The position numbers and the translations under genes are program-made. A stretch of DNA of 64,000 nucleotides from Streptomyces avermitilis MA-4680 = NBRC 14893 (GTDB taxonomy: Bacteria; Actinomycetota; Actinomycetes; Streptomycetales; Streptomycetaceae): NCBI RefSeq assembly GCF_000009765.2, contig NC_003155.5, positions 558,001 through 622,000 on the forward strand, written 5' to 3'. Positions 36,232 through 43,934 of this stretch are shown piece by piece; positions within the stretch are counted from its first letter, which is position 1; the number at the start of each line of letters is the position of its first letter. Below the pieces are notes generated by a model. That model was not told the DNA's origin, did no database searches, and worked only from the letters and a program-made list of their open reading frames with translations.

Positions 36232-37248
36232 GTGCTGATTGCTCAGCGTCCGTCCCTGACCGAAGAGGTCGTCGACGAGTTCCGCTCCCGGTTCGTGATC
36301 GAGCCGCTGGAGCCGGGCTTCGGCTACACCCTCGGCAACTCCCTCCGCCGGACCCTCCTGTCCTCGATCCCGGGTGCGGCGGTCACGTCCATCCGCGTCG
36401 ACGGCGTTCTGCACGAGTTCACCACCGTGCCGGGTGTCAAGGAGGACGTCACCGACCTGATCCTCAACATCAAGCAGCTGGTCGTCTCCTCGGAGCACGA
36501 CGAGCCGGTCGTGATGTACCTGCGCAAGCAGGGTCCGGGTCTGGTCACCGCCGCCGACATCGCGCCCCCGGCCGGTGTCGAGGTGCACAACCCCGACCTC
36601 GTCCTCGCCACGCTCAACGGCAAGGGCAAGCTGGAGATGGAGCTGACCGTCGAGCGCGGTCGCGGCTACGTCTCCGCCGTTCAGAACAAGCAGGTCGGTC
36701 AGGAGATCGGGCGCATCCCGGTCGACTCGATCTACTCGCCGGTGCTGAAGGTCACGTACAAGGTCGAGGCGACCCGTGTCGAGCAGCGCACCGACTTCGA
36801 CAAGCTGATCGTCGACGTCGAGACCAAGCAGGCCATGCGTCCCCGTGACGCCATGGCGTCGGCCGGCAAGACGCTGGTCGAGCTGTTCGGTCTCGCCCGC
36901 GAGCTCAACATCGACGCCGAGGGCATCGACATGGGCCCGTCCCCGGTGGACGCCGCCCTCGCCGCCGACCTGGTGATGCCGATCGAGGAGCTGGAGCTCA
37001 CGGTCCGGTCGTACAACTGCCTCAAGCGCGAGGGCGTCCACTCCGTGGGTGAGCTCGTCGCCCGCTCCGAGGCCGACCTCCTGGACATCCGCAACTTCGG
37101 TGCGAAGTCCATCGACGAGGTCAAGGCGAAGCTGGCCGGCATGGGCCTGGGCCTCAAGGACAGCCCGCCCGGATTCGACCCGACCGCCGCCGCACTCGGT
37201 GCGGACGACGACGCGGACGCGGGTTTCCTGGAGACGGAGCATTACTGA
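36232..37248 (+). CDS. rpoA: RNA polymerase alpha subunit, out of its usual operon
   Basis: A 338-aa complete protein starting at GTG 36232, with GGAGG 9 nt upstream. The N-terminal dimerisation domain ([20 protein letters not shown]) and the C-terminal domain ([20 protein letters not shown], then [19 protein letters not shown]) are intact, including the Arg and Asn-Cys-Leu-Lys stretch that contacts UP-element DNA. From memory it is nearly identical to Streptomyces RpoA, with changes concentrated in the last third ([32 protein letters not shown]). The usual neighbours (rpsM, rpsK, rpsD before; rplQ after) are absent; an ISL3 fragment follows instead. It is probably a second copy, though the window cannot show whether another exists. 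Confidence 0.97.
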
Positions 37249-37470: not shown

Positions 37471-37892
37471 GTGCTGTTTCCCGGGATCGACGTGCGGTTG
37501 GAGGGCGTGGTGGTCACCGGTACGCTGCTGTTCGTCGATGCCGCAGCGTGCGGGCGACCACCGTACTGCCCGAACTGCCGGTGGCGGGGGCGCAGAATCC
37601 ACTCGCCCTACCACCGCAGCTTGTCCGAACGCCCCCTGGCTGGCCAGAAGTCGGTCGTGCGCCTGCGGGTGCGGCGCTTCTTCTGCGACCGGAAGTCGTG
37701 CGCCCGCAGGACCTTCGTCAAGCAGGTCGACCGGCTGACGGAACGCCACCGCCGCTCCAGCCTCGGGCTGAAGGAATGGCTGACGACGGTAGCCGTCGAG
37801 CTCGGCGGCCGGCCTGGGGAACGGGTTTGCCGCAAGCTGAACCTGGCGGCGGGTCGGACCCACCTGGTGGGGCTGCTGGAGGAGCCGCCGGT
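37471..37892 (+). pseudogene. ISL3-family transposase, N-terminal fragment
   Basis: From GTG 37471 it reads MLFPGIDVRLEGVVVTG. A zinc-finger segment follows (CGRPPYCPNCRWRGRRIHSP), then FFCDRKSCARRTFVKQV and ERHRRSSLGLKEWL, the N-terminal HTH and Zn-ribbon half of ISL3 transposases. Similarity stops at [12 protein letters not shown]; the DDE half is missing. It lies 220 bp downstream of rpoA and may be connected with its relocation. Confidence 0.8.
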
Positions 37893-37894
37893 GC

Positions 37895-38022
37895 CAGGCC
37901 CGCGCTCTGCTGGACGAGCACACCGCTGTGCGCGGCCCGGGGACCGGCTGGGACCTGCACCGCCACACTCCGTCCTCACCCCCTCGGCGAGCAGGGTGCC
38001 TCCCTGCTGGTACTTGTTTCCC
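37895..38022 (+). pseudogene. Tyrosine recombinase (integrase), C-terminal fragment
   Basis: [20 protein letters not shown], then [13 protein letters not shown] resembles the region around the catalytic HxLR of phage-type and transposon-type integrases (ARALLDEHT....DLHE.RHS..THLGE.GASL..LM). Two frames are needed, and the Arg-His box is destroyed. The active Tyr is absent. Confidence 0.45.
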
Positions 38023-38537
38023 ATCCTCTGATGCGGCTCGGTGGACGGCCTAGCCTTGTGGGGGGGTTGTCTGGCTCTGGACCGGAATTGGGGTCTGACA
38101 CCAGTGATGCGGGCCGTGTCCCGTCACGGCTGGGGAGCCGTGACCGGCCCGTTTGGTGTGTGAAACACATGCTCGAAGGTGCTACGGCAACGCTCTCGCC
38201 TGTAGACAGATGGCCGGGCGCGGGGCGCCGATCAGGTGAACTGACACCCGGGTCCAGGAAGCCGGAGGCGGTTTCCCGAGCTGCGGACTCATGATGGCCG
38301 TATGCCTTCCGCTGGGCGCGTCCGACGACATGCCGGGCAGGCAGTCGACACCAGACCTATCCGCATGCAGAACGGCAGGCAACGGCCCCCGGCCGACAGG
38401 GCCGTGGGGCCACCCGTCCGAGTGACATTCCATCGAATAGGCGTATTGGTCCAGCCATACTGGCGCCGTTCGATGCCAACCGGTCACGGTAGTGCCCGGG
38501 CGCTCGCGGGCGGCCGAGCACCGAAAGGAGTCCCCTC
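38023..38537. other. Intergenic region
   Basis: About 515 bp without a gene. It contains the hairpin at 38123-38144 and the ribosome binding site (AAGGAG) of the next gene. Confidence 0.4.
38123..38144. terminator. Short hairpin
   Basis: GTCACGGCT-GGGG-AGCCGTGAC is a perfect 9-bp stem with a 4-nt loop. It may be a terminator or a remnant of an element end; no U-tract follows. Confidence 0.4.
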
Positions 38538-39337: not shown

Positions 39338-39775
39338 TCATCCGTAACTCAAGATGTCTGCGTTCAACTCGGCAGCGCCTACACCGACAGCACAGGAGAC
39401 AATGACCGACCCGACGGTCCCCGCTGGACCGAAGAGAGTGGTTGCGGCCATAGTGACGCCGGTTTCAGATGCTGCGCCGATACCTGCCAGGCAGCCAGCG
39501 AAATCCCCGACAATACGGCTGCCTATGTCAAGAAAATCCGAGAAGCTGAACAGTCCGCTCGGGTCGATGCGGTTGACTGGGCCGTCTTCGGCGTAGAGGT
39601 GGGGGTTCCCCTCTTGTCCGGAGGGGTCGGGGCTGTTGAAGCGGCCGACGTTGGGGTCGTGGTAGCGGGCGCCGGGGTGGTAGAGGCTCGTGGGATCCTG
39701 GTAATTGCCGGTGAAGCGGTAGGGCTGGCAGCACCCCGGGATGTAGCCGAGGTCCAGGTCGCCCGAGGCCCACGA
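39338..39775 (-). pseudogene. Displaced RHS C-terminal tip
   Basis: The frame reads VSWASGDLDLGYIPGCCQPY, YRFTGNYQDPTSLYHPGARY, VGRFNSPDPSGQEGNPHLYA and VNRIDPSG, then a 75-residue tip (LFSFSDFLDIGSRIVGDFAG to ELNADILSYG). The first part copies the end of the RHS core at 40312. The tip is a homologous but diverged version of that protein's tip. No start codon lies in frame. Displaced core-plus-tip cassettes downstream of an RHS gene are typical of polymorphic toxin loci. Confidence 0.75.
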
Positions 39776-40013
39776 GACAGTGCACCCAGTCGGCGAACCA
39801 TGGCCGACGCCTCGCCGTAGCGGTCGACGTGGTCGAACACCGACTGGCGGTCGTGGGCGGCAGACGAGCCACTTGCTTCTGCCCTCAATTCCTTGCAGGA
39901 CAACCCTATTCGACCCCTGTCTCGCATTTCGGATTCCCTCAGGCGAACCGGTCTCCGGCCATCCGCATCGTCGGGATCAGTACGGCGCGCGAAATCGGAT
40001 CCGAATCACCGCG

Positions 40014-40199
40014 TTAGGAGCGATTCTTCCGACGAGCCAAGAAGGCGAAGCCCGCCAAAACAACTCCGCTGACTGCGGCGATCACTCCCAGTACGAGCGG
40101 AACAGCATCGTCAGTAGCCGTTCCTGCGACGCACGCGCATATTCCTCCTACGATCAAGACCGCAGAGAAGATTCGCACTCCTCTGATTGCGTCATCCAT
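40014..40199 (-). CDS. Small two-helix membrane protein, candidate RHS immunity protein
   Basis: 61 aa from ATG 40199 (GGAAGG upstream). Two hydrophobic helices (about residues 10-28 and 33-54) flank a short acidic loop (TATDDAVP), and the tail is basic (ARRKNRS). It lies 112 bp downstream of the RHS gene in the same orientation and immediately ahead of the displaced tip. This is the position of immunity genes in RHS loci, and the RHS tip is itself hydrophobic. Function is inferred from position only; the sequence matches no family I know. Confidence 0.6.
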   Translation of the reverse strand: MDDAIRGVRIFSAVLIVGGICACVAGTATDDAVPLVLGVIAAVSGVVLAGFAFLARRKNRS

Positions 40200-40311
40200 C
40201 GATGCACCCTTCCGCCGCACTCGTAGGAGAACCGTTGGGCCGAGAATGAGTTCCCGACCCAACAGCCATCTAGAGAGGCCGTAGCCTCCTGTTCAATCTA
40301 TTCTTCACGTA

Positions 40312-43045
40312 TTACCCGTAGGTGAGAATCTCCGCTCCATAGAAGCCTGCGGCACCTCCAAGCGCGCAGCTGCCGACTACGGCGAGACCAACGCCTACAG
40401 CACTGCCAACTCCGGCGCCCACCACGCCGCCGACGGCGGCGGCGTATGCGATGGATCCGGTCTCTGCTGCAGCTGTAACTCCCGCGAGGCAGCCAGTAAC
40501 GACTCCGAAAATGTCGCTGCCCGTGTCGAGTGCGTCGGAGAAGCTGAACAGCCCGTTGGGGTCGATGCGGTTGACGGGGTCGCCTTCGGCGTAGAGGTAG
40601 GGGTTCTCCTCCTGTCCGGAGGGGTCGGGGCTGTTGAAGCGGCCGATGTTGGGGTCGTAGTAGCGGGCGCCGTAGTGGTAGAGGCCCGTGACGTCTTGGT
40701 AGCCGCCGGCGAAGCGGTAGGGCTGGGGGTTCTTCTCGCTGGTGGAGGCCCTGGTGACGCCGCGGGGGCTGTAGGCGTAGGTGTTGACCTTGGCGCCTGT
40801 CTCGTCGGTGAGGGCGATGACGGAGCCGAGTGCGTCGGTGAGGTAGCAGTACGCCTTGCCCCCGGTCGTCATGGAGTTCAGGGTGCCCCCGGGTTCGCGG
40901 TTGAATCCCGTGTCCACACCGGCAGTTGAGGTGCCGGCCAGGCCGATCGGCCCGTTGTGGAAGTAGGTGTCTCCGAGGCGGATGCGTTCGCTCTGGTCGG
41001 TGGAACCGTACTGCCCGGTGTATGTCTTTCCGCCCACGGTCAGCGACGTCAGCTGGGAGTGGTCGGTCCACTTCTCGGCCGTGCGGGTGCCCTCCGGAGT
41101 CGACGCGCCGGCGGTCTCGTTGCCGATCTTGTCGTAGGACCAGTTCGTCGTGGAGCCGTTCTTCGCGGTCAGCTGCTGGGCGTCGTTGACGGTGTAGGTG
41201 GTGGCGCCGGGGCAGCCGGCCGCAGTGCCCTGGCTGGTGAGGTTGCCGGCGAGGTCGTAGCAGTAGAGCCAGGAGGAGTTGAGGGTGGTGCCCTTCTTCT
41301 CCTCGGCGTACGAGAAGCGGCCCGCGCCGTCGTAGGTGTAGGTCGTCTTCAGGCCGGTGACGTTGTCGGTGGACGAGCGGATCTTGCTGCCTTCCGTCGT
41401 CCCGCTGGTGCCGTATCCGTAGGAGTAGGCCAGGTCGACCGGGGTGCCCTTGGGGGAGGTGGTCTTGATGGTCTTGGGGCGGCTGGAGTTGTCGGGATCG
41501 ACCTTCTGCACCGTGCCACCCGGATAGGTGGTCGTGGTACGGACGTCGTTGTTGTTGTACTTGTACGTCGTCACCCGGCCCGCGGGGTCCTTCAGCTCGG
41601 CGAGCTTGTTGACCTCGTTCCAGGTGTAGTCGACCGTGCCGGCCGGGTCCTGGTAGTAGTCGACGTTCCCGGACGGGGTGTACGCGAGCAGGGTCTGCGA
41701 GCCGTCCTGCAGGGTGCGGATCGTCTCGCGTTGCAGCGGGTCGAAGTCGTACTTGATGGTGCCGGTGCTGTCGGTGCGCTGGGTGAGGTTGCCGTCGCCG
41801 TCGTACCAGTACTCGACACGTGCCTTGTTGGTCGTGTCGACGATGCGGGTGCGATCGCGGTTGTCGTAGGTATAGGTGACGGTCACACCGCGGGCGTCGG
41901 TGACGGTCTTGGTGCGGCCCAGCGCGTCGTAGGTGTAGGTGATCTTGGCCAGCGGGGCGGGCGGAGTGACGGTGTCCAGGTTGCCCGCGCTGTCGTAGTG
42001 GAAAGTGGTGGTGACCGTCTTCGCCGCGGTCATCTTCGTCTTCTCGGTGCAGCGCTGGCCTGCGAAGCCGCCGCACGTCGGGGAGGCGGGGTTGTAGGTG
42101 TAGGAGACGTTGCCGCCGCCGGTACCGGTCTGTGCCACCGACATCGTGTTGCCGACCGCGTCGTAGGTGAAGTCCGTCTTTTCACCGTCGGGGTTGGTGG
42201 AGTCCTTGGGGACGTCTGCGCCGGCGATGGTCTGCCAGTGGTTGACCGTCTTGCCGCCCGTTGGCTGAGTGATGGTCTCGAGGTTGTTACGGGTGTTGAA
42301 GCCGTAGTCGGTGACGTTGCCCGGTGTGGTGCCCGAGCCCATCGCATCCGTGCTGGTGTCGATGCTGTGGTTCGCGTCGAACTTGGTCGAGCGCTTGTGG
42401 CCCATCGCGTCGGTGACGTCGGAGACCTGACCGTCGCTGTCGTGCTGGTACTTCGTCGCGTGCGTCTCCGGGTCGGTGGCCGTGGTCGTACCGGCCGCGG
42501 TCACAGAGTCGCTGGTGTAGGCGTAGGTCCAGGTCGGGCCGGTGTGGCCGTCGCTGTTGAAGCCGGTGCCGCGCAGCATGGAGGTGACGCGGTTGGCGTC
42601 GTCGTAGGTGAAGACCGTGACACGGCCCTCGGCGGTGGTGATCTTGTCGACGCGGCCCCAGGCGTCGTAGCGGAAGACGGTCGTCTTGCCCTCGGTGTCG
42701 GTGGTGGAGGCCAGGTTGCCGTTCGCGTCAGGTGGAAGACGGCGGTGCGGCCGGTGTTGTCCTTGGCCTGCCACTGCGAGGCGTCCGTCTTGGCCAGGTC
42801 CACCCAGCGGCCCGAACGGGTCTCGGTGAGCTTGAAGCCCTTGTTCTCGCCGCTCTCGTCGTGCTGAGTGACGGTGACCGAGCCCTTGTTGCGATCGGTG
42901 ACCTTCGTCAGCGTCCCGTTGGCGTCGTAGGTGTCCTTGGAGTGGGACTTCCAGTTCGTCAGCGTGTAGGTGCCGTCACTGTTCTTCTTCAGCTCCTGCG
43001 AATACCACTTCGGGGTGGTGAACGTACCGTCACTCCAGGTCGGGA
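40312..43045 (-). pseudogene. RHS/YD-repeat protein with a glycine-rich C-terminal tip, 5'-truncated and frameshifted
   Basis: The main frame (40312-42774) carries about twelve YD repeats of the type YTYDALGRTKTVTDARG, then the RHS core end (YHYGARYYDPNIGRFNSPDP, then LYAEGDPVNRIDPNG). A tip of about 80 residues follows, rich in Gly, Ala and Val (AAVGGVVGAGVGSAVGVGLA). Upstream repeats (SDGTYTLTNWKSHSKDTYDA and others) continue in another frame to 43045; one lost base near 42733 separates them. At 43045 the gene is cut by a Tn3 transposase end, so the signal and N-terminal regions are gone. RHS proteins form a shell that delivers a C-terminal toxin. Confidence 0.85.
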
Positions 43046-43470
43046 AGCTGGAAGGAGTACCGGCCGAGCACGTTGATGTGGTGGCGCATGAACGGGGAGA
43101 GCCGGGCGACGTCCTCGTCGCGCACCTCGAAGCCGTCGGCGCGGAGCTGGGTGAGGGCGGCGTCCATGTAGCGGGTGTTGAACAGCACGAGCGCGTTGAG
43201 GACCAGGCCGAGCGCCCCGATCTGGTCCTCCATGCCGTCCTGGTAGCGCTGGTAGAGCTGCCCCGCCCGCCGGGCGAGCGCGTGGTGGCCTTCCTGGAGG
43301 TTGGCCTGCACCTTGATCTGCCGCCGGTAGCCGGGCTCGTCGGCACGGTCAGGCGCAGGATGTGCAGAGTCTTCGCGATCCGCCGTAGTACGTGATCGCG
43401 TCGCCGAGCGGGGTGGGCCGGCCATCGCGGGAGAGCATCCGGATGACGTCGTAGGCGCGGACGGCTCCGA
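43030..43470 (-). pseudogene. Tn3-family transposase (TnpA), C-terminal fragment
   Basis: In up to three frames it reads AVRAYDVIRMLSRDGRPTPL, DEPGYRRQIKVQANLQEGHH, YQRYQDGMEDQIGALGLVLN and SPFMRHHINVLGRYSFQLPD, the conserved end of Tn3 TnpA. Frame changes occur near 43365 and 43390. The last codons abut RHS sequence, so the transposon end or a deletion destroyed the RHS 5' region. Confidence 0.8.
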
Positions 43471-43544: not shown

Positions 43545-43694
43545 ACGGAACCGGCCGTACTCACGGCGGCCGCCGTCACACTGGTCGAGGGGCCGGCGTT
43601 CTGCGTATCGGGCACCTCTTGACCGCGTAGGTTCGCCGGGTTGGTGGTCGTGGCGGTTGGATGTGCACTGACGTCCGTCCCGACCGCTGGGGGT

Positions 43695-43934
43695 GTGGTG
43701 GCCGAGCCTGTCTGCGTGCGCAGGTTGACCGATCAGGAGGGTCAGAAGCTGCAGCAGATCGTGCGCCGGGGCAGCGCCAGTTCGGTGCGGTTCCGGCGGG
43801 CGATGATGCTGCTGGCCTCGGCCGGCGGGAACCGGGTGCCGGTGATCGCCCAGCTGGTGTAGGCCGACGAGGACACCGTCAGGGATGTGATCCACGCGTT
43901 CAATGAGAAGGGCCTGGCCTGCCTTGGACCCTAA
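43695..43934 (+). pseudogene. IS630-family transposase, N-terminal fragment with internal stop
   Basis: Reads VCVRRLTDQEGQKLQQIVRR, then VRFRRAMMLLASAGGNRVPV, IAQLV, TAG (43860-43862), then ADEDTVRDVIHAFNEKGLAC. The stop replaces the usual Gln codon. Sequence ends after GLACLGP; the catalytic domain is missing. Confidence 0.75.

Follow-up and report, generated by a model that had tools for sequence, protein, structure and literature searches.

A damaged RHS locus of Streptomyces avermitilis and its relatives point to a secreted polymorphic toxin with a putative membrane-active tip and two-helix immunity protein

An RHS protein that ends in a short Gly/Ala/Val-rich tip, followed by a small membrane protein and then by a second, displaced tip, raises the question of whether a toxin and its immunity are encoded there, and how such a tip might act. 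This arrangement was found in a window of 64,000 nucleotides of the chromosome of Streptomyces avermitilis MA-4680 = NBRC 14893 (NC_003155.5, positions 558,001 to 622,000), where a first-pass annotation had recognized the layout of a polymorphic toxin. Described RHS tips are mostly enzymes, and the proven pore-forming RHS example that we found is a Gram-negative T6SS effector. Our analysis makes it probable that a secreted polymorphic toxin of a Streptomyces type is encoded here in decayed form, with a tip that would be closed by a disulfide and depolarise membranes and a two-helix protein that would confer immunity.

Anatomy and decay of the window copy

The whole locus lies on the minus strand, in the order RHS core, tip, 61-aa ORF and displaced core-plus-tip. 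Its features, in window positions, are:

40555..43067, minus strand: RHS/YD-repeat core, 5'-truncated, frameshifted near 42730, ending in the DPNGL junction
40315..40554, minus strand: tip, subtype A, 80 aa counted from the junction G; proposed membrane-active toxin
40014..40199, minus strand: 61-aa two-helix membrane protein, proposed immunity, subtype A (coding 40017-40199, stop 40014)
39557..39727, minus strand: displaced 3' end of an RHS core (orphan cassette), the core lacking its own start codon
39338..39556, minus strand: displaced tip, subtype B, 72 aa, Cys 22 and 55
43030..43425, minus strand: C-terminal remnant of a Tn3-family transposase (PF01526, E 4.3e-26; NF033527, E 5.9e-28)

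The open frame of the RHS protein spans 40312-42774 (minus strand) and continues upstream in another frame to about 43067. RHS_repeat is matched 11 times in it (E 2.2e-40), an Rhs_assc_core match (E 5.8e-22) ends at residue 742 of 820, and the DPNGL sequence at the end of the core fits the DPxG junction of the RHS system. The core is 77 % identical over 725 aa to that of S. physcomitrii (L032). The elements listed in the first-pass annotation were all recovered: a core followed by a tip of roughly 80 residues (40315-40554, 57 % Gly+Ala+Val), a 61-residue two-helix membrane protein in the same orientation (ORF 40017-40199, minus strand) that AlphaFold2 predicts as a hairpin with a mean pLDDT of 86, and a displaced core-plus-tip (39341-39727) with a homologous but diverged tip, 50 % identical to the main one. 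About 115 nt separate the main tip from the 61-aa ORF, which has a ribosome-binding-like GGAAGG site just upstream of its ATG. The displaced core-plus-tip is 65 % identical over 137 aa to the main copy (83 % over 246 nt for the core DNA), and its tip is 64 % identical to that of S. aureocirculatus (L038).

The first reading did not recognize that this RHS gene is damaged and that the weapon is no longer intact in the window. Alignment to L033 (S. swartbergensis), an intact relative, starts only at residue 202; both the signal peptide and the DUF6531 domain are lacking, the first ~200 residues of the intact relatives being gone, and the Tn3 transposase remnant abuts the cut 5' end. No immunity ORF lies behind the displaced tip, and a subtype-B immunity gene was not found in this genome, although the displaced tip belongs to subtype B. 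As a weapon, the window copy has most likely ceased to function; its RHS protein lacks the export region, so that a use is likely for the immunity gene alone. We propose that the displaced copy is a stored or relic cassette.

Tip-immunity pairing and cassette exchange

A tip was counted as paired if an ORF of 45-130 aa with two TM helices started within 500 nt after it. This held for 14 of the 15 discovery tips and for six of the seven tips found later by profile, giving 20/22 overall, compared with 0.8 % at random positions in the same DNA. The two exceptions, the displaced window tip and a tip in genome G855 (G855a) whose frame is broken upstream, look like relic cassettes. Tip and immunity distances were closely correlated over 20 pairs (Mantel r=0.87, a value reached in 0 of 5000 permutations). 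On the 15 loci with an intact core the corresponding value was r=0.88, tip and core distances gave r=0.08, and a partial correlation of 0.89 remained between tip and immunity once the core was allowed for. The tips fall into four subtypes (A-D), each matched by an immunity subtype of its own, and the same tip-immunity pair, which it had been suggested to seek in other Streptomyces, recurs there with strict co-segregation. An immunity gene directly downstream that co-varies with the tip is a criterion for RHS polymorphic toxins and was found here; the pairing, the co-variation and the variation of tips on a conserved core uphold the layout originally recognized, and the tip/immunity reading is well supported.

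Substitutions in the immunity ORF point the same way, as dN/dS values of 0.14-0.30 (window pairs) reveal purifying selection and so indicate a real gene family; the comparison with L033 showed 7 nonsynonymous against 16 synonymous substitutions. Assignment of the small protein to DUF308 (21.1 bits, cut-off 25) or to SLATT_1 (11.4 bits, cut-off 41) was rejected, both scores falling below their cut-offs.

A single-sequence search found the tip in 7/296 genomes of the genus and a profile search found it in 12/298 family-level genomes, all of them Streptomyces. Outside Streptomyces, no tip match was obtained in 395 class-level genomes (137 genera) or in the 298 family-level genomes (17 genera), nor was there a match in the plasmid records searched. 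A scan of 84,980 species genomes returned seven named Streptomyces loci; a closer alignment was used for the contig scan, the first, mixed alignment being too diverse. The intact relatives are proteins of ~1,100-1,175 aa with a signal-peptide-like N-terminus (judged by eye, without a predictor), RHS repeats and then the tip, and two of the three tested carry DUF6531. It had been anticipated that the tip might turn out to be a common, non-toxic C-terminus of intact RHS proteins; the low counts above, and the presence of 27 tip clusters on the same core, argue against this.

Several loci indicate that tip and immunity gene are exchanged together. L037 carries a tip 84 % identical to that of the window, along with type-A immunity, on a core that is only 29-30 % identical, and in L057 (genome G229) an unrelated tip stands on a core that shares 89 % identity with the L033 core over 1,038 aa. 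L057 also possesses a three-ORF immunity array of types A, C and B, ~2 kb from the RHS gene. In L116 (genome G916) the RHS core reads straight into an immunity-gene remnant, as if the tip had been deleted. Arrangements such as these are typical of the polymorphic toxin loci described previously (PMC3482391).

Type-A immunity without a detected tip was seen in 6/296 genomes, which bears on the earlier proviso that occurrence of the small protein independently of RHS tips would weaken the reading. That proviso applies in part; three of the copies lie near RHS genes or remnants (L057 near a complete RHS gene, L058 and L059 near remnants) and these fit orphan immunity genes. No RHS gene or remnant was seen near the copies at L055, L056 and L060.

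Some further arrangements were observed. The polyimmunity array of L057 occupies ORFs at 7.7-8.3 kb, and each of its three subtypes has a tip subtype of its own as partner at other loci. L111 (G113 contig 299) and L144 (G135 contig 66) have three to four core-plus-tip cassettes in tandem within about 6-9 kb, with a tip or tip variant that differs per cassette. Extra small membrane ORFs stand in tandem behind the first immunity gene in L021/L034 and L025, one of which is a homologue of the immunity protein of another subtype.

The tip family and the repertoire on this core

The subtype A tip runs GLFSFSD...ILTYG, contains two invariant Cys (22, 63) and is devoid of Lys, Arg and Trp. It is highly hydrophobic and nearly uncharged, with no recognizable binding domain, and its AlphaFold2 model is poor (mean pLDDT 51). 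The initial impression that the tip matches no known RHS toxin family was borne out when HMM libraries were searched as had been proposed, with nothing usable for the tip in Pfam, NCBIfam, PADLOC or the PDB by sequence or profile. As judged from these comparisons, the tip appears to belong to no described toxin family that could be found, and we class it as a new family, and probably a new class, within the RHS polymorphic toxins.

Four more specific assignments were considered. A glycine zipper is not established as the defining motif: GxxxG spacing is barely above the expectation from composition (zipper p 0.01-0.12 for subtype A, without significance for the majority of the remaining subtypes), the Pfam Gly-zipper models did not match the tip, and glycine-zipper assembly is unsupported because the motif spacing is close to the level that composition gives. 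Homology to class IIb bacteriocins was suggested by the look of the tips; no bacteriocin model matched them, and this remains a lead. Membership of Tox-WTIP was discarded, the RxxR and W-TIP motifs being absent from the tip. Homology to Tse5 by sequence was likewise discarded, given that no PDB chain, Tse5 entries included, matches the tip or its profile; the PDB search reaches the Tse5 entry 8cp6 through the core.

The C-terminal piece of this core was found in 64/393 genomes, and the loci fetched yielded 79 intact tips in 27 sequence clusters. The clustering was corrected for composition, as the uncorrected version merged most tips into one cluster. Two observations are new, namely that tips on this core subclass form at least 27 clusters, most of them short and hydrophobic, and that none of the intact tips has an odd number of Cys. 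Most of the tips are 55-117 residues long and Gly/Ala/Val-rich. Their Cys counts are 2 (59 tips), 4 (15 tips) or 0 (5 tips) and never odd; under random placement an even count has a chance of about 0.51 per cluster, or about 1e-8 for all 27, a figure that is optimistic in that the clusters may share distant ancestry. The simplest interpretation of these even counts is that the tips would be exported and disulfide-bonded. The L037-type core was too rare to serve as a control for tip composition (1/179 genomes).

A two-TM ORF lies behind 45 of the 81 short tips of this core, and the tips without one may have other types of immunity. Among ten cluster representatives, none reached the cut-off of a Pfam family and one had a weak score against glycine-zipper models. 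Some tips on this core, such as those of L104, L118 and L135, are polar or basic and not Gly-rich. Cluster 1 (e.g. L133, L098) comprises 13 four-Cys, polar, beta-looking tips on the same RHS core, for which no family match was obtained.

Proposed action, comparison with known systems and alternatives

We propose that the signal-peptide-like N-terminus of the intact relatives exports the ~1,110-aa RHS shell and that a cut at the DPxGL junction, as in Tse5 and other RHS proteins, frees a tip of 55-117 residues. The freed tip would be a hydrophobic, Gly/Ala/Val-rich peptide with one disulfide (two in some families), and, acting from outside on a competitor that is probably a related bacterium, would insert into its cytoplasmic membrane and depolarise that membrane. 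The downstream two-helix protein would be the cognate immunity, acting inside the producer's membrane. Tip and immunity gene travel as one cassette between RHS cores.

Such an action would resemble that of Tse5/Tsi5 and of the T7SS glycine-rich depolarising toxins, with no sequence relation found to either. In Tse5 of Pseudomonas aeruginosa the tip is a membrane protein inside the RHS shell, which cleaves it off at the C-terminal plug and delivers it to the membrane of the target; there it forms ion-selective pores. The immunity protein Tsi5 has two predicted TM regions (PMC10684867, PMC9637101). Common to both systems are the RHS shell with its C-terminal cleavage plug (predicted for the Streptomyces proteins), a short tip without enzyme motifs that in Streptomyces would be membrane-active, and the small two-TM immunity protein, the last being a likeness of kind and not of sequence. 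However, Tse5 belongs to the T6SS effectors, its N-terminus is PAAR-like and its tip has 149 residues, whereas the relatives studied here are Gram-positive proteins with a signal-peptide-like N-terminus and a tip of ~78 residues with paired Cys. The T7SS toxins EsxX, TelE and TspA would also be alike, in their secreted, antibacterial, glycine-rich depolarising C-termini, membrane-bound immunity and orphan immunity genes in arrays (PMC12744356), but they are LXG-domain T7SS substrates and not RHS proteins; compared with these glycine-zipper toxins, the Streptomyces tips have paired Cys and, for most subtypes, no significant zipper spacing.

Three further systems share part of this picture. Tox-WTIP is a small, hydrophobic polymorphic-toxin tip, RHS proteins included, with two predicted helices and a predicted pore-forming action, but its family is defined by the RxxR and W-TIP motifs and is restricted to proteobacteria (PMC3482391). 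CDI ionophore toxins are polymorphic and ion-dissipating, with highly variable, tip-specific CdiI immunity; they differ in being Gram-negative, in using CdiA two-partner secretion and in consisting of a five-helix bundle plus an entry domain (PMC11630599). The bacterial teneurin-like protein (BiTLP) is a YD-shell protein in which disulfides are involved and whose small polymorphic C-terminus is membrane-active when exported and inhibits growth only then; however, its architecture is of the teneurin FN-plug/NHL type and its Cys bonds the tip to the FN-plug (PMC13018210), whereas the Cys of the Streptomyces tips appear, from their sequences, to be paired inside the tip. Literature searches for Streptomyces RHS proteins with disulfides and for YD repeats with bacteriocins returned nothing on point, most subscription papers lying outside the search.

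One alternative is a polymorphic toxin with cognate two-TM immunity whose tip, in place of forming pores itself, binds a specific membrane protein or the cell-wall precursor machinery. The tips are short, bacteriocin-like and apparently disulfide-closed, their immunity is membrane-embedded, the strict matching of subtypes fits a specific interface, and CDI ionophores require membrane-protein receptors (PMC11630599); the very hydrophobic, almost uncharged nature of the tip and its want of a recognizable binding domain make this alternative unlikely. We regard it as very improbable that the tip is no toxin and serves for entry or anchoring at the end of a structural RHS adhesin, with the small protein as its membrane partner or chaperone. 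Hydrophobic C-termini can anchor proteins and the T6SS effector Tde1 is reported to use a glycine zipper segment for translocation (PMC10240207), but here no cargo follows the tip, wholly different tips stand on near-identical cores (L057 against L033), and the existence of orphan tips and immunity arrays represents variation that would be unexpected for a conserved anchor.

A different kind of alternative concerns this genome only, namely that the whole locus is dead debris in which neither the tip nor the small ORF functions any longer. The Tn3 remnant, the missing 200-residue N-terminus, the frameshift and the displaced tip without immunity give it substance, and we rate it a serious possibility, if somewhat short of an even chance, as the immunity ORF and both tips, main and displaced, retain intact frames and the immunity substitutions are mostly synonymous. 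Those substitution rates largely record the history before the damage, and decay in the window is compatible with a membrane-depolarising toxin as the explanation of the family.

If depolarising tips of this kind are indeed what the core delivers, the system would connect peptide bacteriocins with RHS polymorphic toxins, provide many ready toxin-immunity pairs for studies of specificity and hint at how filamentous antibiotic producers distinguish kin from rivals by contact. We give about an even chance to the broader suggestion that the exported Streptomyces RHS subclass is a scaffold delivering disulfide-closed, bacteriocin-like membrane peptides. This would amount to a Gram-positive arsenal, distinct from the nuclease-type tips of RHS/WapA proteins, in which short hydrophobic tips, unrelated to one another and numbering in the dozens, nearly always have 2 or 4 Cys and mostly two-helix immunities. 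A DPxGL junction, an even Cys count and a two-TM ORF behind the tip together form a search rule for more such systems.

The surroundings of the locus in the window resemble a decayed mobile-element island, with transposase-like fragments, classified by eye, flanking it at 37471-38031 (plus strand, ISL3-type) and 43641-43906 (plus strand, helix-turn-helix type). A complete second gene for the RNA polymerase alpha subunit (rpoA) lies at 36232-37248 (plus strand), with no ribosomal-protein genes recognized around it. The same chromosome carries another copy, at 6.0 Mb and 97 % identical, and a duplicated rpoA is unusual.
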